Source: Saprospiraceae bacterium (lineage in GTDB: Bacteria > Bacteroidota > Bacteroidia > Chitinophagales > Saprospiraceae). Taken from it: a DNA stretch of 64,000 nucleotides. The notes below the pieces were generated by a model, which saw nothing but the letters and a program-made list of their open reading frames with translations, made no database searches and had not been told where the DNA came from. Made by a program: the position numbers and the translations under genes. The stretch spans positions 1 through 64,000 of the forward strand of contig JAIYAP010000002.1 in NCBI GenBank assembly GCA_027488935.1, given 5' to 3'. This document shows, in pieces, positions 16,142 to 27,481 of the stretch. The first letter of the stretch is position 1. Each line of letters opens with the position of its first letter.

Positions 16142-16238
16142 TGATCATTTGCTTTTCAAATCAAGGTTGTCTTCTTAAATTGTGCAGCGTATCGTTACTA
16201 TGACGCTTAAACGCAAAACATATTTACAATCGATCAAC

Positions 16239-16802
16239 ATGCAAAACAAAAATACTGTCCCACCAAAAATATTGATAACCACTTTGGTCACCATCGTGAT
16301 TTTTGGATTGCTTTTTTGGCAACACCTGCATGGTGGCGTGCCCAGTCATCATATCCTGCAGCGCGCCGACTTACCTGAAATTTCTAATTGGTGGGGTGGG
16401 TTGTTGCTGCCTGTTTTGACCTGGCTTGCATTGGGCCGGATAGAGAAGCGGTTGAATAAACAGGCTTTATCTACACAAAAAACAGATAATCAAAATATTA
16501 AAATCTTAGTGCGGTTCTTTTTGGGCTTAACCATGGGTCTTTTGATCGCGGTTTCCTTTACAAATGACTACCAACTTTTTTTAGACAACGTGCCTTTCGT
16601 ATTGCTACTGCTTAGTCTGCTCATTCCGATCTATTACAGCGAGTTCATGCTGGGTTTTATTTTGGGAATGAGTTATACCTTCGGCGCATTCTTGCCGACG
16701 GTTTTCATTTTGATCTTTGCTGGGTTGGGTTATCTTATTTTTCGATTTATTCGGCCGTTGATATTAAGGGTGTTTACAAGGAAACCATTTGTTTCGTTAT
16801 AG
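16239..16802 (+). CDS. Hypothetical multi-pass membrane protein
   Basis: The 187-residue protein has about five hydrophobic helices: ILITTLVTIVIFGLLFW, GGLLLPVLTWLALG, FFLGLTMGLLIAVSF, FVLLLLSLLIPIYY and a C-terminal FLPTVFILIFAGLGYLIF. The conserved-looking segment HLHGGVPSHHILQRADLPEISNWW precedes the second helix and is rich in histidine. I recognise no named family. The start is uncertain: GTG at 16182 and ATG at 16200 are in frame, but the ATG at 16239 puts a short hydrophilic N terminus directly before the first helix. A lipoprotein gene follows after 38 bp and may be cotranscribed. Confidence 0.65.
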   Translation: MQNKNTVPPKILITTLVTIVIFGLLFWQHLHGGVPSHHILQRADLPEISNWWGGLLLPVLTWLALGRIEKRLNKQALSTQKTDNQNIKILVRFFLGLTMGLLIAVSFTNDYQLFLDNVPFVLLLLSLLIPIYYSEFMLGFILGMSYTFGAFLPTVFILIFAGLGYLIFRFIRPLILRVFTRKPFVSL

Positions 16803-16840
16803 CGTCTTGGTTATTAGCCATCTAAACAGATAAAGCAACC

Positions 16841-17605
16841 ATGAAATCAGAGCAAATTCATATGACAATTTTTATACTATTTATTTTATCCGCGTGCTCA
16901 AGCGGCAATGTCCCCAAAACAGTCAGTTCTCCAGACCTTCCTGCGGATACTTTACAGGCCAAATCAAACATTGATAATCAAATTGAAAAGACCATAAAGT
17001 TTGACCATGACTTTGAAATAAAAGTCGGACGAAATGAAGATTTGGCCCCCTTGCAAGTTTATTCACTTTTTATTTTGACCCACAATAACAAACAAATTTA
17101 TATAGACACTTCATTTACAGAATATGAGTTTGGCGATTCGATATACCCAATTGTTAGAGCGATTGACCATGAAACATTCGAAGTTTTAGTCGAAATTAAC
17201 GATCGACCACTTAAAAATTATGTGAAATACTTTAAAGTGTTTCAAGATCAAATAATTTACACTGAAAAAATGCCGACATTTTTTCCGCGTGCTTTTAACC
17301 TAGACGAGGACGAAAATTTAGAACTGGCAGGTTTTTGGGGCGTCGGCGAAACCTGGGGTGTCAACCATTCCTTAACAGGTTACGCCCCAATCATTTATTA
17401 CGAAATAAGGCCTACAGGAATTACGCTTGATAGTGCGTTGACAATTAGCAAAAACCGTGAATTCTATGGTGACTTTTATGGTTTTAAATACAACGAAAAA
17501 GTAGAATTTAAGACCAGTGAAACCATAAAAAGGGATGACGAAATTCTAAAATTAGTTGAACAAAGTAGTAATCAAGTCAAGATGCCTGGGTCGGCGAATT
17601 GGTGA
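16841..17605 (+). CDS. Hypothetical lipoprotein
   Basis: The 254-residue product begins with a lipoprotein signal (IFILFILSAC, lipobox LSAC with the cysteine at residue 19). A serine/proline-rich linker follows. The mature part is beta-rich and acidic, with DEDENLELAGFWGVGETWGVNH as the most distinctive segment. I do not recognise the family. Being next to the small membrane protein at 16239 suggests a shared envelope role, but that is only positional. Base composition is more AT-rich than clpB. Confidence 0.7.
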   Translation: MKSEQIHMTIFILFILSACSSGNVPKTVSSPDLPADTLQAKSNIDNQIEKTIKFDHDFEIKVGRNEDLAPLQVYSLFILTHNNKQIYIDTSFTEYEFGDSIYPIVRAIDHETFEVLVEINDRPLKNYVKYFKVFQDQIIYTEKMPTFFPRAFNLDEDENLELAGFWGVGETWGVNHSLTGYAPIIYYEIRPTGITLDSALTISKNREFYGDFYGFKYNEKVEFKTSETIKRDDEILKLVEQSSNQVKMPGSANW

Positions 17606-17667
17606 GTAGGGAATAAGTTGTTTTTGGGTCACTTTGTAAAGGCGAATTGGCTCGCTCATTAACAATT

Positions 17668-17976
17668 TTACTCCCGTAAGCCATCTGGGAAAACCCCAGC
17701 AATTGGCAAAAAACCGATCATACATACAAAATAATAGGCAAACATTGTCCCGACAACAAACAGCGTCAAAGCCACTCCAGCCAAGTACTTTCGTGCTATG
17801 AAATATCTTATCGCCTTGGCAATTATATAAAATCCATTTAAACCCAATGTCACAAAAATAAACATCGTTCCGATCATGGTGTACACAAATGGAAAATGGA
17901 CTAGATCATATAAAGGCAAGCACAAAAAAACTTGTAATCCCAGCAGTAGAACATTCAAAATAATGTGATTTCGCAT
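17668..17976 (-). CDS. Hypothetical small membrane protein
   Basis: This 102-residue protein consists of about three hydrophobic helices: HIILNVLLLGLQVFLCLPLY, VYTMIGTMFIFVTLGLNGFYII and LAGVALTLFVVGTMFAYYFVC. The ATG at 17976 starts directly before the first helix; an earlier start at 18090 would overlap the upstream oxygenase gene. No family is recognised. It lies 79 bp downstream of the MpaB-type gene at 18056 on the same strand, so it may be cotranscribed. Confidence 0.5.
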   Translation of the reverse strand: MRNHIILNVLLLGLQVFLCLPLYDLVHFPFVYTMIGTMFIFVTLGLNGFYIIAKAIRYFIARKYLAGVALTLFVVGTMFAYYFVCMIGFLPIAGVFPDGLRE

Positions 17977-18055
17977 AATTAATGTGTTTAATAAATCAAT
18001 TTCAAACCAGGAATCTTTGCCGAAATAATTCAAAAAATGTTTTCCTGCCCTGTTT

Positions 18056-18895
18056 TTAACGCACCCCCAAATCCTCCACGATATACCCATCCGGGTAACT
18101 TTTTACCTGACGTTTCGTCCGAAATTTCGGCTCCTTCCGCAATGGCACACACGCAAGGATCCATTTTCGCAGCTCCATGGCGCTGTACAAACTGGCGCGC
18201 ACCAGCCAATTTGGGCGGGGGTAATGCATGGCCTGGCGCAGGCGTTCGTCCATAATGGCATAAGCAAAAGGTTTAGCTACCGGAAACAAAAACCGGGGTA
18301 AATACCAGCCCAACATCAAATGCAGGGTAGCATCCGCAACTTTTCGGCCAGCCTCGGTGTAGCCAAATTGCGTTTGTTCGTACTGGATGTTAAACTGCTC
18401 CATCGCCTCAAAACTCGGCGGAATATCCTGAATACCCATCCTGTTCCCGATTTCTGCCCATAAAGTATAGCCCGCAATCAGTTCTTTCGGGGTGGAAATT
18501 CGGTAGCCAAAACGTTTGTTCCAGCGATAAGGCTCAATGACAAAGGTGGTGAGCACATATTTAAAATCATCATTAGAAATCTTGAAGCGGCCGTGCATTT
18601 GGTTCATGCGCGCGAGGGCTGCTTTGCCCCGATCACTTTCGTACCCGTGCTCAATGATTTCACTCAGGATCAAATCGGTATCGTCGTAGCGTTTTTGGGT
18701 GCGCTCGGTGAATTCATGGGTACCCAACAGCAGTTTTCCGATACTAGGTACCGCAAAGGTGCGAAACAGTGCAAACTCCAGCGCGCGCGTGCTATCCCAG
18801 GGGAAATCGTGGTAAGCCACCCAATGACTGATTTCAAGATGGTCCTTTTGGGCATCTAAGGGAGCAATTTTGGATAGGAAGGTTTGTGTGCGCAT
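18056..18895 (-). CDS. MpaB/DUF2236-type oxygenase
   Basis: The 279-residue protein fits the oxygenase MpaB / rubber oxygenase catalytic family. Around residues 40-75 are the ALFRTFAVPSIGKLL and RYDDTDLI segments. The core ARMNQMHGRFKISNDDFKYVL contains H101, a candidate heme-binding histidine, followed by TTFVIEPYRW and EIGNRMGIQDIP. Characterised relatives are fungal MpaB, which cleaves a farnesyl chain, and bacterial rubber oxygenase Lcp; both act on isoprenoid double bonds. The natural substrate here is unknown. It is divergent from a second DUF2236-like gene at 19328, across an intergenic region of about 430 bp. Confidence 0.82.
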   Translation of the reverse strand: MRTQTFLSKIAPLDAQKDHLEISHWVAYHDFPWDSTRALEFALFRTFAVPSIGKLLLGTHEFTERTQKRYDDTDLILSEIIEHGYESDRGKAALARMNQMHGRFKISNDDFKYVLTTFVIEPYRWNKRFGYRISTPKELIAGYTLWAEIGNRMGIQDIPPSFEAMEQFNIQYEQTQFGYTEAGRKVADATLHLMLGWYLPRFLFPVAKPFAYAIMDERLRQAMHYPRPNWLVRASLYSAMELRKWILACVPLRKEPKFRTKRQVKSYPDGYIVEDLGVR

Positions 18896-19039
18896 CGTGA
18901 TAGGTCAGTTTCGGGTTCAAAGATAAATCCAGGTAATTTTATATCGTTCAATATGCGTTTGAATTTCCCCTCATCTACATATTTTAAATCCAATTAAAAT
19001 GACGGGAACCTACCAGGAATTATTAACACACGCGAGAAT

Positions 19040-19072
19040 TTTGTTGGATTTTATCCAAACTTTGTATTTTTG
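19040..19072 (+). promoter_or_regulatory. Possible Bacteroidota promoter before second MpaB-type gene
   Basis: TTTG at 19040-19043 and TATTTTTG at 19065-19072 (consensus TAnnTTTG) are separated by 21 bp, close to the expected spacing. The site lies in the 432-bp divergent gap 18896-19327, which otherwise shows only AT-rich DNA and no gene. The transcript would have a long leader of about 250 nt. Confidence 0.35.
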
Positions 19073-19327
19073 GCAAAAAAAGGCTCAATTGGGCAAAAAT
19101 CATCCAAAAGACTTTCATATTAGCGAAAATATAAATTTTTATAGACTCTTATACCCGGATTTAAATGGGTAAGACGTAATCCGTTTTCTTAACCACCCTG
19201 TGTCGGCTATAATCTGCTTTTATTCCAGATCCCGCGCTTCGAGAAAAACCATTTGAACAAAACAATCGAATCGATGTGGTGCCATCTGCATGGCAAACTT
19301 GTTTTCGATTGCACAACCAGTGAAAAC

Positions 19328-20479
19328 ATGAATGCTCAGGAGCTATTGCCCCGCGATTTTCTGGCACAGATGAGGTTGGAGGCCGATCCTGTTGCAGATC
19401 AGGCCATTGTTGACATTATGGCCGAAGGTTTTGGGCAGATGCAGCAATTGTACCAAACCTTATCTTCCAATCAAAAGTTAAAAGAGCTGCCGCCTTCCTC
19501 GGCGCTTCGGCGCTATTTTGAAACCAATGTAGTGCTTCCAGCATGGGCCGACGCGCAAAAGTGCGCCATCGGACAGGATGTGTTCCGGCGCTTTGGCGTA
19601 GAGATAACGATGTTACTTTTCTATGTTTCCCTGCCTGCGGCGTACAGTTGTCGGCATGGGGCGCATGTGTTGGTTGAAACAGGGCGCCTGATTACCCGTA
19701 AAGGAAAAGAGGACCGATTTGCCCATAGGTTGATGGAAACCGCCCAGTTTGTGCTCGACGTGATGGAGCCGGGTGCCTTTCTTGCTGAAGGAAATGGCAT
19801 TGAGGTTGCTTTAAAAATTCGGCTCATTCATGCCTCCATTCGCTACTATTTGAAAAGCCAAAGCCAGTGGGACCTGGCCACTTATGGAGAGCCCATCAAC
19901 CAGGAGGATATGGCAGGCACCTTGATGTCGTTTTCTGCCATGGTTTTGGAAGGATTGGAAAACATGGGCGCCCATGTCACTGCCGAGGAGCAAGAAGCCT
20001 ATTTCCATTGCTGGCGCATCGTAGGCCATTTGACTGGGCTCCGACCAGAATTGAATCCCGAAACCTATTCCGATGGCCTGAAATTGGGATTCCAAATTTT
20101 CAACGACCAAAAAGGCACTTCTAATGATGGTGAAATTTTGATAAAAGCCTTGGTAGATTTTATTTCCGGCATGTTGCCCCATCATCCGATAAAACGAAAA
20201 TGGCCCATCATGATGATCCGGTATTTTGTCAACAAGGACTTGGCAGGCGTTTTAAAGTTTGAAAAAACATCGGTCATCGAACGCGTGCTGCTCGATGCGT
20301 GGTTTAGATTGCATTTGTTTTTTCACCGCCTTTTTCAAAGACATCACTACGCTGTACCCCGAAAATACATAGGTCGCACCCGCAATCATTTTCTGCAAAA
20401 AATGATTTTGTACTTCAATGAACATAAAGGCATTCAGTTTCGCATACCGCCTTCTTTAATGAAAGACTGGCAATCCTGA
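19328..20479 (+). CDS. MpaB/DUF2236-type oxygenase (Lcp-like)
   Basis: The 383-residue protein shows the long form of the family. KIRLIHASIRYYL (H168, R172) matches the helix that carries the heme-ligating histidine in rubber oxygenases. GEPINQEDMAGTLMSFS (187-203) and WRIVGHLTGL (229-238) match the conserved core. I use the ATG at 19328; the frame opens at a TTG at 19253, and an ATG at 19274 is also possible. It is followed after 109 bp by a seven-helix membrane protein and then the large cyclase gene, all on the plus strand. The combination suggests isoprenoid-type chemistry, but no substrate can be named. Confidence 0.83.
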   Translation: MNAQELLPRDFLAQMRLEADPVADQAIVDIMAEGFGQMQQLYQTLSSNQKLKELPPSSALRRYFETNVVLPAWADAQKCAIGQDVFRRFGVEITMLLFYVSLPAAYSCRHGAHVLVETGRLITRKGKEDRFAHRLMETAQFVLDVMEPGAFLAEGNGIEVALKIRLIHASIRYYLKSQSQWDLATYGEPINQEDMAGTLMSFSAMVLEGLENMGAHVTAEEQEAYFHCWRIVGHLTGLRPELNPETYSDGLKLGFQIFNDQKGTSNDGEILIKALVDFISGMLPHHPIKRKWPIMMIRYFVNKDLAGVLKFEKTSVIERVLLDAWFRLHLFFHRLFQRHHYAVPRKYIGRTRNHFLQKMILYFNEHKGIQFRIPPSLMKDWQS

Positions 20480-20588
20480 TTTTTTACCGTAATCCGCCTG
20501 AAAAGTAGTTCTCATGCGCATAGGGCACGCTGTTTTTTTCAATAGCGCATGTTTCAAGCAAACCTGTCATTTCAATTCCAAAACATTT

Positions 20589-21278
20589 ATGAACCAACTG
20601 ATTAACACCACCGATTACAGCCCCCTTGTACTAATTTTAGCCGCTTTAGGCGCTATTGGCTGGATTGTTGCTTATTTTATAACCATACACAACATTCGGA
20701 AGCACCAGTTTGTAGAAATGCCTGTTTTTTGTGTATGTGGCGATATTGCCTGGGAATTTCTTTGGGGATTCGTTTTTCACGACAGGATCAACATGGGGCA
20801 GCTTTATGTTTGGTCATACCGTGCCTGGTTTCTGATCGATGTATATATTTTCGTTAGTGTGATGCGATACGGATACAAACAGATTGACTTACCCTTGTTG
20901 CGGCGGAACGCCAAGCCCATTTTTGTTGGTCTAACCCTCACATCGGCTGCCATTGTTTCCGCATTTGTCCAAACCGAGTTAGACAATCCGATGGGGGCCC
21001 AAACTTCTTATCTGCTCAATTTCCTGATCTCCTCCACGTATATTTTCAATTGGTTGCGCCTGCATAAAACCCAGACTTTCTCCAAATGGGTAGCCTGGAT
21101 GAAAATGCTGGGCACCCTCATGTACAGCATTTTCTTCTTAATTCAATTTCCCAAGGATTATGCTGTTACGGTCTTGAGCTCGGCAGTATTGATACTCGAC
21201 CTGATTTATATTTGGATGATATACTGCTATAAGGCCGACGAAGGAGAAAACACCGTGATTGTCCATGCAAATGCTTGA
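20589..21278 (+). CDS. Seven-helix membrane protein resembling PaxB/Pyr4 terpene cyclases
   Basis: The 229-residue protein has about seven hydrophobic helices and almost no soluble domain. Helix 2 carries CGDIAWEFLWGF with E56; helix 7 carries LILDLIYIWM with D204. Fungal Pyr4 and PaxB-type integral membrane terpene cyclases have the same size, helix count and a pair of essential acids in equivalent helices (E63 and D218 in Pyr4). The resemblance is read by eye and not proven. The ATG at 20589 starts just before the first helix. The last 14 bp overlap the start of the next gene, which implies translational coupling. Confidence 0.6.
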   Translation: MNQLINTTDYSPLVLILAALGAIGWIVAYFITIHNIRKHQFVEMPVFCVCGDIAWEFLWGFVFHDRINMGQLYVWSYRAWFLIDVYIFVSVMRYGYKQIDLPLLRRNAKPIFVGLTLTSAAIVSAFVQTELDNPMGAQTSYLLNFLISSTYIFNWLRLHKTQTFSKWVAWMKMLGTLMYSIFFLIQFPKDYAVTVLSSAVLILDLIYIWMIYCYKADEGENTVIVHANA

Positions 21279-24200
21279 TGCCTACACCGACGTGCAACTT
21301 TTATTTTCCGGAAAAACATTTTCCTGGTTTCGGGGAACGCACCGTACCGACGGGAAGGCACAACTATTTAAAACATTCAGTTCGGATTATCCAAAATCGG
21401 AAGATTTCCTCTTTTTTGAGCGCGATTTTGCCATTTCAGAACACCTGATATCCGAATTTGCCCTTCGTTCGGAAGGCATGTTACAAGCAGAAAAACGGAC
21501 TTACATTCAGTATCCCGATTTTTCAGGTTTGCCCCTGCTTCATTATTTGCGCACGCAAAATCGGTTGTACCTGGATCCCCAGGGAGCAATCAGGGTATTT
21601 GCAGCCATGGTGGAGGCCGTGGGAAACTTGCATAAAAACAAATTGGTGCACCGCGGCCTGAATCCGAGCGCCATTTTGTTTGATCCGGAAAGTGGCGAAA
21701 TCCGGATTACCGGTTTTGGATTTTCAACGTTCAACGATGCCGAAAAACTTGAAATCAATATTGATCTGTATGATGTAGAAAATGCATTGGCCTACATTGC
21801 ACCCGAGCAAACGGGCCGATTGCGGGCCGAGGTAGACCAGCGCAGCGATTATTACGCTTTGGGTATTGTTTTTTATGAATGTCTTTCCCGACAGCTGCCT
21901 TTCCCCTATTCAGACTCTATTAGTCTGATTTACAGCCATATAGCGCAAGAGGCGCCTTCGGTTAGGACGCTAAACCCCGCAGTTCCGGCGGCGCTGGCAG
22001 CAATTGTCCACAAGATGATGGCCAAAAATGGCCGCGATCGCTATCAAAGTGCACGGGGTATTCTTGCGGATTTGCAAAAGTGTTCCGATTTAATTGGGCT
22101 CGGAGTGGAGGAGCAGATGTTTCCATTAGGCGGGGGCGACATTTCAGATAGTTTGTACCTGCCCGAACACAGTTTTGGACGGGAAAATGAACTGGACCAG
22201 ATTGTTGACATACTGGAGAACCCAAGCCCCGATCGGTTTTCGGCGATCTGGATATCCGGTCCTTCCGGTATGGGCAAAACCACATTAATGCACGCCGTAA
22301 AAGCGCGGTTGGCGGGGCGAAGCGATATTTATTTTATATCGGGAACCTATAAAAATTATTCCCGAAATGTCCCCTTTGCTGGGATTTCGGAGGCCTTGGC
22401 CCGATTGGCCGAACAATTCCTGTCGGCGCCAACTGAAATATTGCACCAAAAACGACAGAAACTGCAGGCTGCGTTGGGGAATCAGGGGAAATTGGCAACC
22501 GACCTCATTCCCGAACTTGAATTATTGTTGGGTGTACAGCAGCCCATTGACTCTGACATCACGCCAGATGAAGCCGAAAACAGGTTGAAAACAGCCTTAC
22601 TCAACCTCATCACGGCTATGCAAGAGGAAGGCAGACGCATGGTGTTGTTTTTGGATGATCTTCATTTGGCCGATGAGCCGTCTTTGGCCTTTTTGAAAAC
22701 CCTTTCCCAGCACAATTTTAACCGCTCCTTGGTACTTATTGGTGCTAGTGTTGCACCGTTTCAAGCAGAAGATGCCCAATTGGCAGCCCTTCAGGAGGTT
22801 TTTCAACAAAATGCAAGCACCTTTATCATCGATTTAAAGCCGCTTTCGGTGGCAAATCTTCAGCAGCTGATTGCCCAGATTTTACCGGGTACGCAAGCAA
22901 GTATGCAGGAAGCGGTGCGGCAATTGCATGCTAAAACAAACGGCATCCCCATTTTCATCATCGAATTCCTGCACCTCGCCCACAAGCAGGGGGTGTTGTT
23001 TTTTGATGATTCCAGCAATAGTTGGTGTTGGCAAGAACAGGGACTGGAACATCTGCCGCTATCCGATAATGTTGCCGACCTGATGTTGGGAAAGGTACAG
23101 GAATTGCCGGTAGAAACCCTCGAATTACTCAAACTCGCCGCTTGCATTGGGCCCCGCTTTACCCTCGACCACCTCTCTGTGCTGGCCCAAAAAACAGAAG
23201 ACGCCTGCTGGTTGGCCCTCACAGAGGCCTTGCTTCATGCGTTTGTCATCGTTGACCGCCCCTTGAGTTTTGGGGCAGATGAGCCCGAAACCCTGGCCGT
23301 AAACGCCCTTGGAAATCTGAAAAATTTGTTGGCTTTCAGCCATGACCGGATTCAGCAAGCGCTCTACAGCTTGATCCCGGAGGCCGAGAAATCGCAGATT
23401 CATCATCAAATAGCCACCCATCAACTCCAATCACTTGCACAGAAGGAAATTGACCGAAATCTGTTTGATATTGCCCAACACCTGCATAACGGATTGGCGA
23501 TTTTGGCAAAGGATGCCTCCAACGAAAAAGCCGTTCAGGTATTCGCCGCAGCAGCAAGCAAGGCCAAACTCAACTCTTCTTACGGGCTGGCCTATACCTA
23601 TTTCAGCGATGCAGCCTTCCTGTATTTGCCCGAGTGGCAGGCAACCACTGCTCCCTGGTATTTTGATGTTTCGCTGGAGCATCTTGAATGCGCTTTTTTG
23701 GCAGGAAAAACAGAAGCAGGAGAAATTTTGTATCAACAACTGCTTGCAAAAGCCTCTGGCAGCATTGAAAAGGCACGAATCCTGCAAGTGAAGGCCATGT
23801 CGCAATTGCATTTGGCCAATTTTTCAGAAACTTATCGAGTATGCCGAGAAGCCCTGGGCTTATTTGGAATTCGGCTGCCCGATAAACCCCGTCAACTAGA
23901 CATTTTGCCTGAAATTATCCAAACACGTATTGCACTCGGTAATAAAACATCGGATGACATATTAGCACTGCCCTTGCTCCAAAACCAAAAGGCACAAATT
24001 ATTGAGGCGCTTTATTTCCGTTGCCTTTCCTATGCTTTGAGTACAAGCAAAGAACTTTATGCCATTATTTCTTTGCGCATATTTAGAAATACCTTGAAAT
24101 ACGGACATGGGGTATTTTCTTTCTCTGGATTTAATATTTACGGGCAGATTCTGGCACTCGGATTCGGTCAGTTTAACAAAGGCTTCGAGTTTACCCGCTT

Positions 24201-26502
24201 GGGCCTTTTATCTGCCCAGAAAGTTGGGAATAATGCCTCTGTGGGAGGGGCTAAATTTGGACTTGCTATATGTGGCGTGCATACCGAGGATTTGAAAACC
24301 TGCGCCGGGATCTTTGAAGAAGCGCACGAAAACCTGAATGTAAGCGGCAATATTTATTACGCTTCCACAGCAACCAGCTCCATTACCCTATTTTATCTAC
24401 TAATTGGATTACCTATTGATCAACTGCGGGAAAAAGCCTTGAGATTTCAACGGTTTGCCTTCAATGCCAATCAGCCGGATACCACCCAATTCCAGCAGGC
24501 TTGTGTGCTATTTATGGATATTCTACGCGGCACCTTACCTGCGACCGAACTGAAAATCGTAGATCCCTATCTGGTTTATCCCAATTTTTCCGACATCCAT
24601 GCCGGTTGGTTTTACACGCTTCAAATGCAACTGGCTTTTTATTTAAACCAGCCGGAATTGGGTGTAGAAGTAGCAAAAAATGCGGAACCAGATATCCAGG
24701 CCCTGTTTTTCGATATTATGTTTCCGGAGTTTTACTTTTTCCGGGCCCTGTTGTTTGCACGTGTGTATAAACAAAGCAACGCGTCGAAGCAACGCTATTA
24801 CTTGCGTGAAATACGCAAATCGGTGGGCATATTTCGAAAAAGGGCACAGTTTAGTCCCAACAATTACCTGCATAAATACCACATATTGAACGGTGTGTAC
24901 TTAGAATTGACCGGAAAGCCCCAGAAGGCGCTCCTTGAGTTTGAACAGGCCATTGTCTTAAGTTCCAAAGGGCAGTACTTTCAATATGAGGCCATTGCAC
25001 ACCAATACGCCGCCCAACATTCCGATGCCGCTTTTCACCTACTCCAGGCCTACAAAAAATTTGAAATGTGGGGTGCTCAGGCTGTTTGTATTCAACTGTT
25101 GCAGGCATATCCGGAAGCATTACAAGGGGTAACTAAAAAAAGTACCGAACACCCAGGCATTTCCGGGAGCAATTCCATTGATTTTAAATCTGTTTTGAAA
25201 GCCTCTCAAATCCTTTCAAAAGAAATAGAATTGTCGAAGGTGCTTTCCAGCCTCATCCGAATTACCATAGAAAATGCGGGCGCTCAACGGGGCTACCTGC
25301 TGGTGGCGGATGGGCAGGGCATCTGGAACGTTAGGGCCACTGGCACCCAGGAGCAGCGGGAGGTACATACACAAAGCGGGGCCCCTGTTTCCGCCCAGGA
25401 AGCGGAATTGGCCCTCGCGGTGGTCAATTATGTTTCCCGAACCCATAAAGCAGTTGTATTGGAAGAAGCCCTCAGCGACCAGCGGTTTGCCCTGGATCCT
25501 TATGTGATTGCTCAGCGCCCCAAATCCATTGCCTGTTACCCGATTCTCAACCAAGGCCAATTGATTGCCATTCTGTACCTGGAAAACAACCTAACAGCTG
25601 GCGCTTTCACCCCCGAACGCGCCGAAGTATTGGGTCTCTTGTCGAGTCAGGCTGGTATTTCGCTTCAAAATGCCCTGTTGTTTGATCAGTTAAACGCCCT
25701 CAACCGGGCTTATGAACGATTTGTACCCAAGGAATTTCTAAAATATCTGAATAAATCCCAAATTACGGAAGTCAAACTGGGGGATCATGTTCAACAGGAA
25801 ATGACCGTCATGTTTGCCGATATCAGACGCTTTACCATTCTTTCTGAACAACTCAGCCCAAGGGAAAATTTTCAGTTTATCAACCATTATCTGGGTATCA
25901 TGGAACCCGTGATTCGGAAATACCATGGGTTTGTCGACAAATACATCGGCGATGCCATTATGGCGCTTTTCCCTACTTCGGCAGAAGATGCCGTGAAGGC
26001 AGCGCTTGAAATGATGGATAAATTGGAAATTTTTAACCAGGAACAACAACATCAAGTACACATTGGCATCGGATTGAATACCGGAAAGCTTATTCTCGGT
26101 ACTGTCGGAGGGCAGGATCGTATGGAAGGCACGGTGATTTCGGATGCTGTGAACATTGCCTCGCGGATAGAATCACTCACCAAAACCTATGGTGTAAATA
26201 TTTTGATTGGCGAAAATACCTTCCTGCAATTACCTAACCCGCAACAGTTTCCCATCCGGCTGCTGGACCAGGTTGTTCCCGATGGAAAATCGGAAAGTAT
26301 TGCCATTTATGAAGTGGTTGCCGGAGAACGGCCCGCGGTGCTCGCGCTTAAAATGGAACTTCGCAGCACTTTTGAAGCCGCATTGATCTCACTCAAAATG
26401 CAGAAACTGGACGAAGCGCATGCCTTGTTTCAACAGATCGTACAAAAAAATCCAGATGACTTGCCCGCCCGTTTGTTGCTCGGTCGCTGTGTCCAATCTT
26501 GA
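21265..26502 (+). CDS. Pseudokinase-AAA ATPase-GAF-adenylate cyclase signalling protein
   Basis: This 1746-residue protein has four parts. Residues about 1-275 form a protein-kinase fold in which the catalytic Asp of HRD is G131 (HRGLNPSAIL) and the DFG Asp is G150 (GFG); the APE motif (YIAPEQTG) remains, so it is probably a pseudokinase. An AAA/ORC-type ATPase follows, with Walker A GPSGMGKTT (332-340) and Walker B VLFLDDLH. A long helical TPR-like region leads to a GAF domain (about 1315-1475). The C-terminal class III cyclase has metal ligands D1519 and D1563, base-selecting K1559 and D1627, and R1634, predicting adenylate cyclase. The ATG at 21265 overlaps the preceding gene by 14 bp. Confidence 0.9.
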   Translation: MQMLDAYTDVQLLFSGKTFSWFRGTHRTDGKAQLFKTFSSDYPKSEDFLFFERDFAISEHLISEFALRSEGMLQAEKRTYIQYPDFSGLPLLHYLRTQNRLYLDPQGAIRVFAAMVEAVGNLHKNKLVHRGLNPSAILFDPESGEIRITGFGFSTFNDAEKLEINIDLYDVENALAYIAPEQTGRLRAEVDQRSDYYALGIVFYECLSRQLPFPYSDSISLIYSHIAQEAPSVRTLNPAVPAALAAIVHKMMAKNGRDRYQSARGILADLQKCSDLIGLGVEEQMFPLGGGDISDSLYLPEHSFGRENELDQIVDILENPSPDRFSAIWISGPSGMGKTTLMHAVKARLAGRSDIYFISGTYKNYSRNVPFAGISEALARLAEQFLSAPTEILHQKRQKLQAALGNQGKLATDLIPELELLLGVQQPIDSDITPDEAENRLKTALLNLITAMQEEGRRMVLFLDDLHLADEPSLAFLKTLSQHNFNRSLVLIGASVAPFQAEDAQLAALQEVFQQNASTFIIDLKPLSVANLQQLIAQILPGTQASMQEAVRQLHAKTNGIPIFIIEFLHLAHKQGVLFFDDSSNSWCWQEQGLEHLPLSDNVADLMLGKVQELPVETLELLKLAACIGPRFTLDHLSVLAQKTEDACWLALTEALLHAFVIVDRPLSFGADEPETLAVNALGNLKNLLAFSHDRIQQALYSLIPEAEKSQIHHQIATHQLQSLAQKEIDRNLFDIAQHLHNGLAILAKDASNEKAVQVFAAAASKAKLNSSYGLAYTYFSDAAFLYLPEWQATTAPWYFDVSLEHLECAFLAGKTEAGEILYQQLLAKASGSIEKARILQVKAMSQLHLANFSETYRVCREALGLFGIRLPDKPRQLDILPEIIQTRIALGNKTSDDILALPLLQNQKAQIIEALYFRCLSYALSTSKELYAIISLRIFRNTLKYGHGVFSFSGFNIYGQILALGFGQFNKGFEFTRLGLLSAQKVGNNASVGGAKFGLAICGVHTEDLKTCAGIFEEAHENLNVSGNIYYASTATSSITLFYLLIGLPIDQLREKALRFQRFAFNANQPDTTQFQQACVLFMDILRGTLPATELKIVDPYLVYPNFSDIHAGWFYTLQMQLAFYLNQPELGVEVAKNAEPDIQALFFDIMFPEFYFFRALLFARVYKQSNASKQRYYLREIRKSVGIFRKRAQFSPNNYLHKYHILNGVYLELTGKPQKALLEFEQAIVLSSKGQYFQYEAIAHQYAAQHSDAAFHLLQAYKKFEMWGAQAVCIQLLQAYPEALQGVTKKSTEHPGISGSNSIDFKSVLKASQILSKEIELSKVLSSLIRITIENAGAQRGYLLVADGQGIWNVRATGTQEQREVHTQSGAPVSAQEAELALAVVNYVSRTHKAVVLEEALSDQRFALDPYVIAQRPKSIACYPILNQGQLIAILYLENNLTAGAFTPERAEVLGLLSSQAGISLQNALLFDQLNALNRAYERFVPKEFLKYLNKSQITEVKLGDHVQQEMTVMFADIRRFTILSEQLSPRENFQFINHYLGIMEPVIRKYHGFVDKYIGDAIMALFPTSAEDAVKAALEMMDKLEIFNQEQQHQVHIGIGLNTGKLILGTVGGQDRMEGTVISDAVNIASRIESLTKTYGVNILIGENTFLQLPNPQQFPIRLLDQVVPDGKSESIAIYEVVAGERPAVLALKMELRSTFEAALISLKMQKLDEAHALFQQIVQKNPDDLPARLLLGRCVQS

Positions 26503-26536
26503 ACGGAAGTGAACAATCGTTTTTAGCAAGCGTTTG

Positions 26537-27481
26537 ATGTTTAACTTTGATCCATCCAACCTTACTATTTTGCGCCCAGTTCGCTCCCGTTTTTTGTTCG
26601 GTATCCTTATCCTTGTGATCGCCAATGTTTGCTTTTCTGCAAAAGCCATTTTAGTCAAATTGTTGTACCGCTATGATATCGACACCGTGTCTGTCATTGC
26701 TCTGCGGATGCTATTTTCCTTGCCATTTTATGTTGCAGCAATCATTTATTTATCAAAACGCAGCAACAATGTGCGCCTTCGCCCGCGGGAATGGCTGGCG
26801 ATCAGCGGATTAGGCATTTTAAGTTATTACATTTCCAGCATGCTCGATTTCTGGGGATTGCAATATGTAACGGCCGGCGTAGAGCGCTTGGTGTTGTTTA
26901 CGTATCCGACCATGGTGCTGATTTTATCTGCGGTGTTGTTTAAGCGGCGCATTGTGCGCATTCAGTATATCGCCATGGCGCTCACGTATTTGGGCATTGT
27001 GCTCGTTTTTGTAGCCGAAAAAGGCTTTGGCGCTCAAACCGATTTGGTCAGGGGCGCACTGTTTGTGTTTGGGTGTGCCTTTACCTATTCTTTCTATGTG
27101 GTGTTCACGGGCGAGTATGTACACAAGGTAGGATCTGTCAAATTTACCAGTTATGCCGTATTGGCAGCCACCGTACCTGCACTGGTACAATCTTTGATAT
27201 ACAACGGGTTAGATATATTTCGTTATCCAATGGAAGTGTATTACTTGTCGGGTTGGCTGGCGGTAGTGGCTACGGTAATCCCTACTTTTCTGATTGTCGA
27301 AGGCATTCGGATTGTGGGGGCCAATAATTCCGGGATCATCGGGTTTATCGGACCGGTTTCTACCATTGCACTGGGGTATTTTATCTTGCAGGAACCAATT
27401 AGTACCCTGCAGTTGGCCGGAACGGCGGTGGTGATCACCGGGGTGGGATTATTGAGTTGGTTTGGAAAAACTCCTGCATAA
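26537..27481 (+). CDS. EamA (DMT superfamily) transporter
   Basis: The 314-residue protein has about ten hydrophobic helices in two EamA repeats. The first begins at FGILILVIANVCFSAKAILVK and contains the ALRMLFSLPFYV loop. The second begins near GALFVFGCAFTYSFYVVF and ends with the typical FIGPVSTIALGYFILQEPIS followed by GTAVVITGVGLL. Members export amino acids, metabolites or nucleotide sugars; the substrate cannot be read from sequence. Translation probably starts at the ATG at 26537 rather than the TTG immediately before it. It follows the cyclase gene by 34 bp and may be transcribed with it. Confidence 0.9.
   Translation: MFNFDPSNLTILRPVRSRFLFGILILVIANVCFSAKAILVKLLYRYDIDTVSVIALRMLFSLPFYVAAIIYLSKRSNNVRLRPREWLAISGLGILSYYISSMLDFWGLQYVTAGVERLVLFTYPTMVLILSAVLFKRRIVRIQYIAMALTYLGIVLVFVAEKGFGAQTDLVRGALFVFGCAFTYSFYVVFTGEYVHKVGSVKFTSYAVLAATVPALVQSLIYNGLDIFRYPMEVYYLSGWLAVVATVIPTFLIVEGIRIVGANNSGIIGFIGPVSTIALGYFILQEPISTLQLAGTAVVITGVGLLSWFGKTPA

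Follow-up and report, generated by a model that had tools for sequence, protein, structure and literature searches.

What does a terpene cyclase do next to a signal transducer? The question is raised by a locus in the genome of a Saprospiraceae bacterium (assembly GCA_027488935.1), within a window of 64,000 nucleotides (contig JAIYAP010000002.1, positions 1 to 64,000). There, genes for a long MpaB/Lcp-type heme oxygenase-like protein, a Pyr4-like transmembrane terpene cyclase (TMTC) and a giant signal transducer follow one another. An original prediction, made from the letters of this stretch, had described two MpaB/DUF2236 oxygenases beside the cyclase and proposed a compact terpenoid pathway. 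Its family assignments, acid pair and conserved neighbourhood hold, and no outcome that was to refute it turned up in profiles, homologues or gene neighbourhoods. Its two-oxygenase unit and self-contained pathway are not supported, and it had overlooked the third partner, the signalling gene. The oxidase–TMTC–transducer cassette is conserved and of an undescribed kind. Its three genes could form an isoprenoid-signal cassette in which the enzymes convert an isoprenoid of the membrane into a signal for the transducer encoded next to them, a proposal that we regard as evenly poised.

Conservation of the cassette

Members of the Pyr4-TMTC family (PF25129) turned up in 24 of 395 genomes sampled from the phylum, 22 of 396 from the order and 16 of 395 from the class; the samples overlap and all come from the window's own phylum. 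Surroundings were fetched for all TMTC genomes but eight (8 of the 14 of family f38); open reading frames (ORFs) were mapped with local profiles, and Pfam was run on part of the neighbours. In the recurring layout, an oxidase gene is followed by the TMTC gene and then by a signalling gene. The oxidase gene encodes either a long MpaB or a flavoprotein of 519-641 aa (PF01593; AmOx). The signalling gene encodes a membrane-anchored class III cyclase, a giant protein with Ser/Thr kinase, AAA and GAF domains (STK-AAA-GAF), a SpoIIE phosphatase or a histidine kinase (HK). Gene order varies, with MpaB, giant and TMTC in succession at L116 and L135 and the kinase upstream at L133. In 11 of 39 rows, the downstream transducer ORF and the TMTC ORF overlap by 4-20 bp (exactly 4 bp in seven), with starts picked mechanically. 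Two loci, L048 and L113, hold tandem TMTC pairs between MpaB and transducer, and both acids discussed below are kept in all four copies. At L049 (7549-9679), a clade TMTC and its cyclase are immediately preceded by genes for a GH3-family protein and a CDP-alcohol phosphatidyltransferase, which replace the usual oxidase.

An operon test with the local profiles placed 27 of 52 TMTC loci with an oxidase, 28 with a signalling gene and 21 with both, against 1, 22 and 0 of 407 other ORFs of the same regions. The linkage resides in clade S, whose 37 loci account for all cases (27, 28 and 21), the other 15 loci giving 0, 0 and 0. Fisher values (2e-17 for signalling, 28/52 versus 22/407, and 4e-28) are a guide only, because the loci are not independent. 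The TMTC tree makes the better case for the linkage. Clade S comprises 39 rows (support 97/99, stem 1.03). Every row labelled as having an oxidase and/or signalling neighbour, 36 in all, belongs to it, and the 17 rows outside carry neither label. Of the three unlabelled clade rows, L121 has an AmOx 279 bp upstream and L135 an MpaB–giant pair 343 bp upstream; the third is L126. The TMTC of L119 was added to the tree by hand and its flavoprotein neighbour checked, the L059 fragment was dropped, and L120 and L136 have no ORF matching the TMTC profile. A hand-made table with looser adjacency than the operon test (39 loci, L119 and L249 included, from 26 genera and 16 families) counts an oxidase in 34, a transducer in 31, both in 27 and at least one in 38; it treats L128 as cut, and since L128 encodes a 7TMR-DISM protein the transducer count becomes 32. 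The neighbourhood conservation expected for MpaB and TMTC is seen in other genomes, in the form of an oxidase, a TMTC and a signalling enzyme. Near two Nostoc plasmid homologues, no transducer is annotated in an incomplete gene table.

Genes of the window

The three ORFs on which the original prediction was built were all recovered in place (Table 1).

Table 1. Genes of the locus, in window coordinates
Feature	Coordinates	Strand	Basis and remarks
Small MpaB/DUF2236 protein	18056..18895	-	PF09995 42.9 bits; divergent neighbour
Long MpaB/Lcp-type heme oxygenase-like protein	19253..20479	+	PF09995 71.3 bits
Pyr4-like transmembrane terpene cyclase (TMTC), 229 aa	20589..21278	+	PF25129 69.4 bits
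Signal transducer: (pseudo)kinase - AAA_16 - long middle region - GAF - class III adenylate cyclase - TPR	21265..26502	+	Pfam

Both MpaB assignments stand. The long MpaB is listed from TTG 19253; its true start is probably ATG 19328, judging from where homologues begin. The transducer (~1745 aa; Pfam domains Pkinase, AAA_16, GAF and Guanylate_cyc) starts at ATG 21265 or 21271 and overlaps the 3' end of the TMTC gene by 14 or 8 bp. In the source genome (6.28 Mb, 99.96% complete), these two PF09995 genes are the only ones found and the window TMTC is the sole significant TMTC gene. Five UbiA-family genes exceed the cut-off, all on other contigs. Among the eight window ORFs tested (16182-27481), Pfam reveals no prenyltransferase, terpene synthase or FMO epoxidase; these ORFs lend no support to a self-contained pathway, and the gene that recurs next to the TMTC encodes a signal-transduction enzyme.

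The small MpaB matches the long-MpaB group weakly by profile and, among the loci mapped, adjoins a long MpaB in one same-genus genome only (L046). Genus-local among these loci, it does not make the two MpaBs a widely conserved unit. In that sister genome an AAA_14/DUF4143 gene (L046:1349-2476) separates the two. Same-genus genomes and one same-family genome (L142-L154) hold a further PF09995 protein that scores strongly, at 137-177 bits; the searches turned up no such protein in the window's genome, where the best score is 71 bits.

Catalytic residues of the putative enzymes

The membrane protein is a member of the Pyr4-like terpene-cyclising family (PF25129, E 4.9e-19, cut-off 27 bits), as originally assigned, and cyclase activity is predicted for it. 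Its residues of interest are W25, Y29, D52, W55, E56, D84, D204 and Y207. The predicted acid pair, E56 and D204, is present and, together with W25, Y29 and D84, kept in 39 of 39 clade S members and invariant across 43 homologues. In an alignment of 54 homologues, E56 occurs in 51 and D204 in 52 of the 53 with a letter at the position, the exceptions lying outside the signalling-linked clade. In the characterised bacterial TMTC DmtA1, mutation-sensitive residues are W29, Y33, N56, W59, E60, D94, E133, D214 and Y217 (PMC6173783). Residues 25/29/52/55/56 and 204/207 of the window protein form two blocks whose internal spacing is that of W29-Y33-N56-W59-E60 and D214-Y217, a match of spacing and not an alignment; of the DmtA1 residues listed, the blocks leave out D94 and E133. 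By this correspondence, W25, Y29, E56 and D204 fall on DmtA1 positions at which mutations eliminate or reduce activity according to that source. Strict hydropathy finds 3 segments in the window TMTC. An AlphaFold model, with the window protein and L011 as sole input, shows seven long helices but has a pLDDT of 44.8. No relative in the PDB was found by sequence at E up to 1. A rhodopsin-like lysine was considered and found no support.

For the oxygenase, a profile built from 16 long-type MpaBs finds Lcp K30 (5o1m/5o1l) at E 4e-37. R159, T163, H193 and R197 (numbered from 19253) are invariant in the 16 and equivalent to Lcp Arg164, Thr168, His198 and Arg202. PMC5522427 describes the first three as residues of the active site or the heme, and Arg202 as structural. 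The distal heme ligand of Lcp K30, Lys167, has no counterpart in the long MpaB, which has E162 there; Lys167 is itself just 59% conserved among Lcps (PMC5522427).

Interchangeable enzymes, sensors and outputs

The other enzymes found in the cassette slots point to isoprenoids. When six of the flavoproteins were compared with NCBIfam, HpnE was the best match of all and carotene/phytoene desaturases were among the next, all under cut-off. A class I methyltransferase accompanies MpaB and the STK-AAA giant in three stretches without TMTC (L060, L176 and L177); the best NCBIfam match of the one tested is geranyl diphosphate C-methyltransferase (73.6 bits versus a cut-off of 400). Ten loci with weaker sensor matches, in genomes without detected TMTC (L250-L259), have an AmOx just upstream in five cases (L250, L251, L256, L257 and L258) and lack it in five. 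A DUF6989 (PF22497) membrane protein occupies the TMTC slot of L250 (5568-6218), beside AmOx and a sensor-cyclase, and DUF6989 is fused to AmOx at L258 (2679-5090). DUF6989 was rejected as a distant relative of the TMTCs: a single sequence, compared with hhalign, gave a probability of 0.3%.

Transducers exchange their outputs. An unnamed N-terminal multi-helix membrane domain of ~190 aa is common to the SpoIIE protein of L129, the HK of L047 and the cyclase of L103 (39% at 7e-48; 32% at 1.4e-29), and the membrane domain of the HK of L123 matches four cyclases at about 1e-16 or better. 7TMR-DISM is joined to SpoIIE (L127, L130 and L132) or HK (L117 and L133), and MASE7 to HK (L125). STK-AAA-GAF proteins end in a cyclase (the window, L055 and L135), in SpoIIE (L051) or in HK (L060, without TMTC). 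Three sensor types thus each occur with two or three outputs (cyclase, HK, SpoIIE), and therefore the enzymes seem to track the input of the transducer, not its output.

The distribution of the membrane domain was followed in the same 396 order genomes, of which 43 gave a match at 1e-10. In the 16 genomes with the strongest matches (E up to 1e-39), PF25129 detects a TMTC in 12 and a more sensitive search in two more (adjacent in G553, a fragment at a contig end in G588), and none was found in G592 and G606. Seven of the 16 supplied profile rows. The other nine, which come from three genera, are independent tests, and a TMTC is present in seven of them. Among the 27 weaker matches, only G630 has one by PF25129. 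Conversely, 9 of the 22 TMTC order genomes, the window's included, show no match at 1e-10, and the mapped clade members among them use STK-AAA or 7TMR-DISM transducers. Three genomes with AmOx-TMTC and no linked transducer by local profiles (G519, G527 and G533) carry the membrane domain joined to HK elsewhere, as does G598, where the TMTC locus is cut. Sensor-like domain copies number 16 and 13 at E up to 1e-5 in G371 and G379 (L052 and L053), and none to two in the other 36 genomes searched.

In the window's own transducer, the cyclase catalytic set D-K-D-D-N-R is complete. We take these positions to be the two metal Asp, the Lys/Asp base pair, the Asn and the Arg of class III adenylate cyclases. 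The set is intact in 15 of the 18 domains compared, including that of the window; the remaining three keep five of six positions. The HRD and DFG motifs of active Ser/Thr kinases are replaced by HRG and GFG in the window and L045. With the cyclase set complete and the kinase motifs altered, cAMP is therefore the predicted output, and the kinase domain probably has a binding or regulatory role. Read by eye, one or both aspartate motifs are lost in the window, L045, L048, L113, L116, L131, L135 and L177 (which keeps HRD), and both are still HRD/DFG-like in L051, L055, L060, L114 and L176.

Interpretation of the locus

If the cassette makes and reads an isoprenoid signal, the heme protein, of the MpaB/Lcp kind, would oxidise or cleave an unsaturated prenyl chain already in the membrane. 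The TMTC would protonate and cyclise the chain through E56 and D204, and the co-translated transducer would read the product, or the fall of substrate. The transducer's kinase domain would act as a non-catalytic module and its class III cyclase would make cAMP. In other Bacteroidota, a flavoprotein nearest HpnE and phytoene desaturases would take the part of the oxidase, and the reader would often combine a membrane sensor (the ~190 aa multi-helix domain, 7TMR-DISM or MASE7) with a cyclase, HK or SpoIIE phosphatase. One guess at the substrate is a pre-existing membrane isoprenoid such as a menaquinone tail. More broadly, and more tentatively, since we place it somewhat short of an even chance, the cassettes may represent a widespread, undescribed class of bacterial signalling. 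In that class, a terpenoid second messenger or cell-cell signal would be the joint product of a TMTC and an isoprenoid oxidase, and a sensor coupled directly to them would read it and pass it to one of several exchangeable outputs (cAMP, phosphorelay, PP2C phosphatase).

Several observations weigh against the signalling proposal. No cassette member anywhere has an established enzyme activity, substrate, product or ligand. By hydropathy, the window transducer has no membrane segment and thus no evident route to reading a membrane lipid, and searches of the window's genome did not find the shared membrane sensor domain. Some AmOx-sensor pairs (L251, L256 and L257) have no TMTC at all, and the TMTC would therefore be dispensable to such systems. 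Among loci with a long-type MpaB and no TMTC in the stretch, eight show no transducer by local profiles, with Pfam run on some neighbours (L169-L175 and L178), and three have one (L060, L176 and L177). L126 is a true exception within the clade, having neither oxidase nor transducer, and L118, L119, L121 and L124 lack a linked transducer by local profiles. Residues vary as well. W55 is retained in just 31 of 39 clade members, even though DmtA1 is inactive with W59A (PMC6173783); the eight rows that have Cys, Asn or Tyr instead are flavoprotein-linked. Y207 is retained in 36 of 39. Position 52 (codon 20742-20744) is D in the window and L052 and N in 37 of 39; in the same source, tuning of the catalytic Glu is proposed as the role of the DmtA1 Asn, and N56A is poorly active.

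The best surviving alternative, in line with the original prediction, is a small classical meroterpenoid or terpenoid pathway. The product of oxidase and TMTC would then be secreted or stay in the membrane, and the signalling neighbours would do no more than regulate its synthesis or respond to it. The retained catalytic residues of TMTC and MpaB would suit it, as would the five UbiA-family genes of the source genome, the upstream genes of L049, a TMTC outside the clade that adjoins UbiA (L050) and a Nostoc TMTC that adjoins isopentenyl phosphate kinase. Yet no recurrent prenyltransferase or terpene synthase stands beside clade members among the neighbours scanned, in a scan that was not exhaustive, and L050 is the sole UbiA-profile match in the mapped regions. 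What does recur there is a transducer whose outputs are swapped and which often has a membrane sensor. A classical pathway is, on this evidence, unlikely.

A second alternative casts TMTC and oxidase as sensory subunits, a globin-like heme protein (O2 or redox) or a flavoprotein (redox or light) feeding a seven-helix adaptor that drives the transducer. The fold of Lcp is a globin fold and has been compared with globin-coupled sensors (PMC5522427). The exchange of heme protein and flavoprotein in one slot, the rest constant, suits redox sensing; the gene overlap suggests a complex, and W55 is lost in part of the clade. Against these points stand the retention of W25, Y29, E56, D84 and D204 in 39 of 39 members and the invariance of the Lcp active-site Arg, Thr and His in 16 MpaBs. 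Enzymes that make or modify a ligand are favoured because the methyltransferase in the TMTC slot of L176, L177 and L060 is hard to see as a sensory subunit. Sensory subunits are accordingly judged improbable. Chance neighbourhood in Bacteroidota genomes rich in signalling genes, for which the background rate of 22/407 might speak, is very improbable and already contradicted by the excess at TMTC loci (signalling 28/52; oxidase 27/52 versus 1/407) and by a linkage spanning 26 genera in the hand-made table.

Relation to known systems

Should the isoprenoid-signal proposal be true, terpenoid chemistry would gain a signalling role in Bacteroidota, and many orphan PF25129 and DUF2236 genes, which cluster-mining filters would discard, would be explained. 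The cassette is moreover an enzyme-sensor set open to direct testing. A literature search limited to open-licence papers found no publication on a TMTC-signalling linkage and no report of Pyr4-like cyclases outside natural-product pathways. In PMC13307353, 1107 bacterial Pyr4-like sequences are charted and 264 with terpenoid genes nearby kept; this filter would probably drop signalling-linked TMTCs.

The window TMTC resembles the bacterial Pyr4/PaxB-type enzymes (DmtA1, XiaH/XiaE, TylF, GroF and ZigF) in its PF25129 domain, its length of about 229 aa, its acid pair and its W/Y set at DmtA1 block spacing. It differs from them in belonging to a separate clade among the rows compared (the named cyclases being outside the tree), in its tie to signalling genes and in having no biosynthetic cluster beside it. 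The long MpaB shares with Lcp rubber oxygenases and MpaB (PF09995) the heme-ligand His, the catalytic Arg and Thr and the Lcp K30 profile match, but has E162 at the distal Lys167 and is linked to a TMTC and a transducer.

Enzymerhodopsins with a carotenoid-cleaving oxygenase unite a seven-helix protein, an isoprenoid-cleaving oxygenase and a cyclase or kinase output in one system. The cassette combines a putative seven-helix protein, an isoprenoid-type oxidase and a cyclase/kinase output in a similar way, whereas its TMTC belongs to another family, is a protein of its own, has cyclase residues and gives no sign of a chromophore. In signal synthase-receptor gene pairs such as LuxI/LuxR, the gene of an enzyme is coupled to that of its product's reader. 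The cassette likewise couples enzyme genes to the gene of a would-be reader, and is set apart by its isoprenoid-type enzymes and by its membrane or STK-AAA transducers with swapped outputs.

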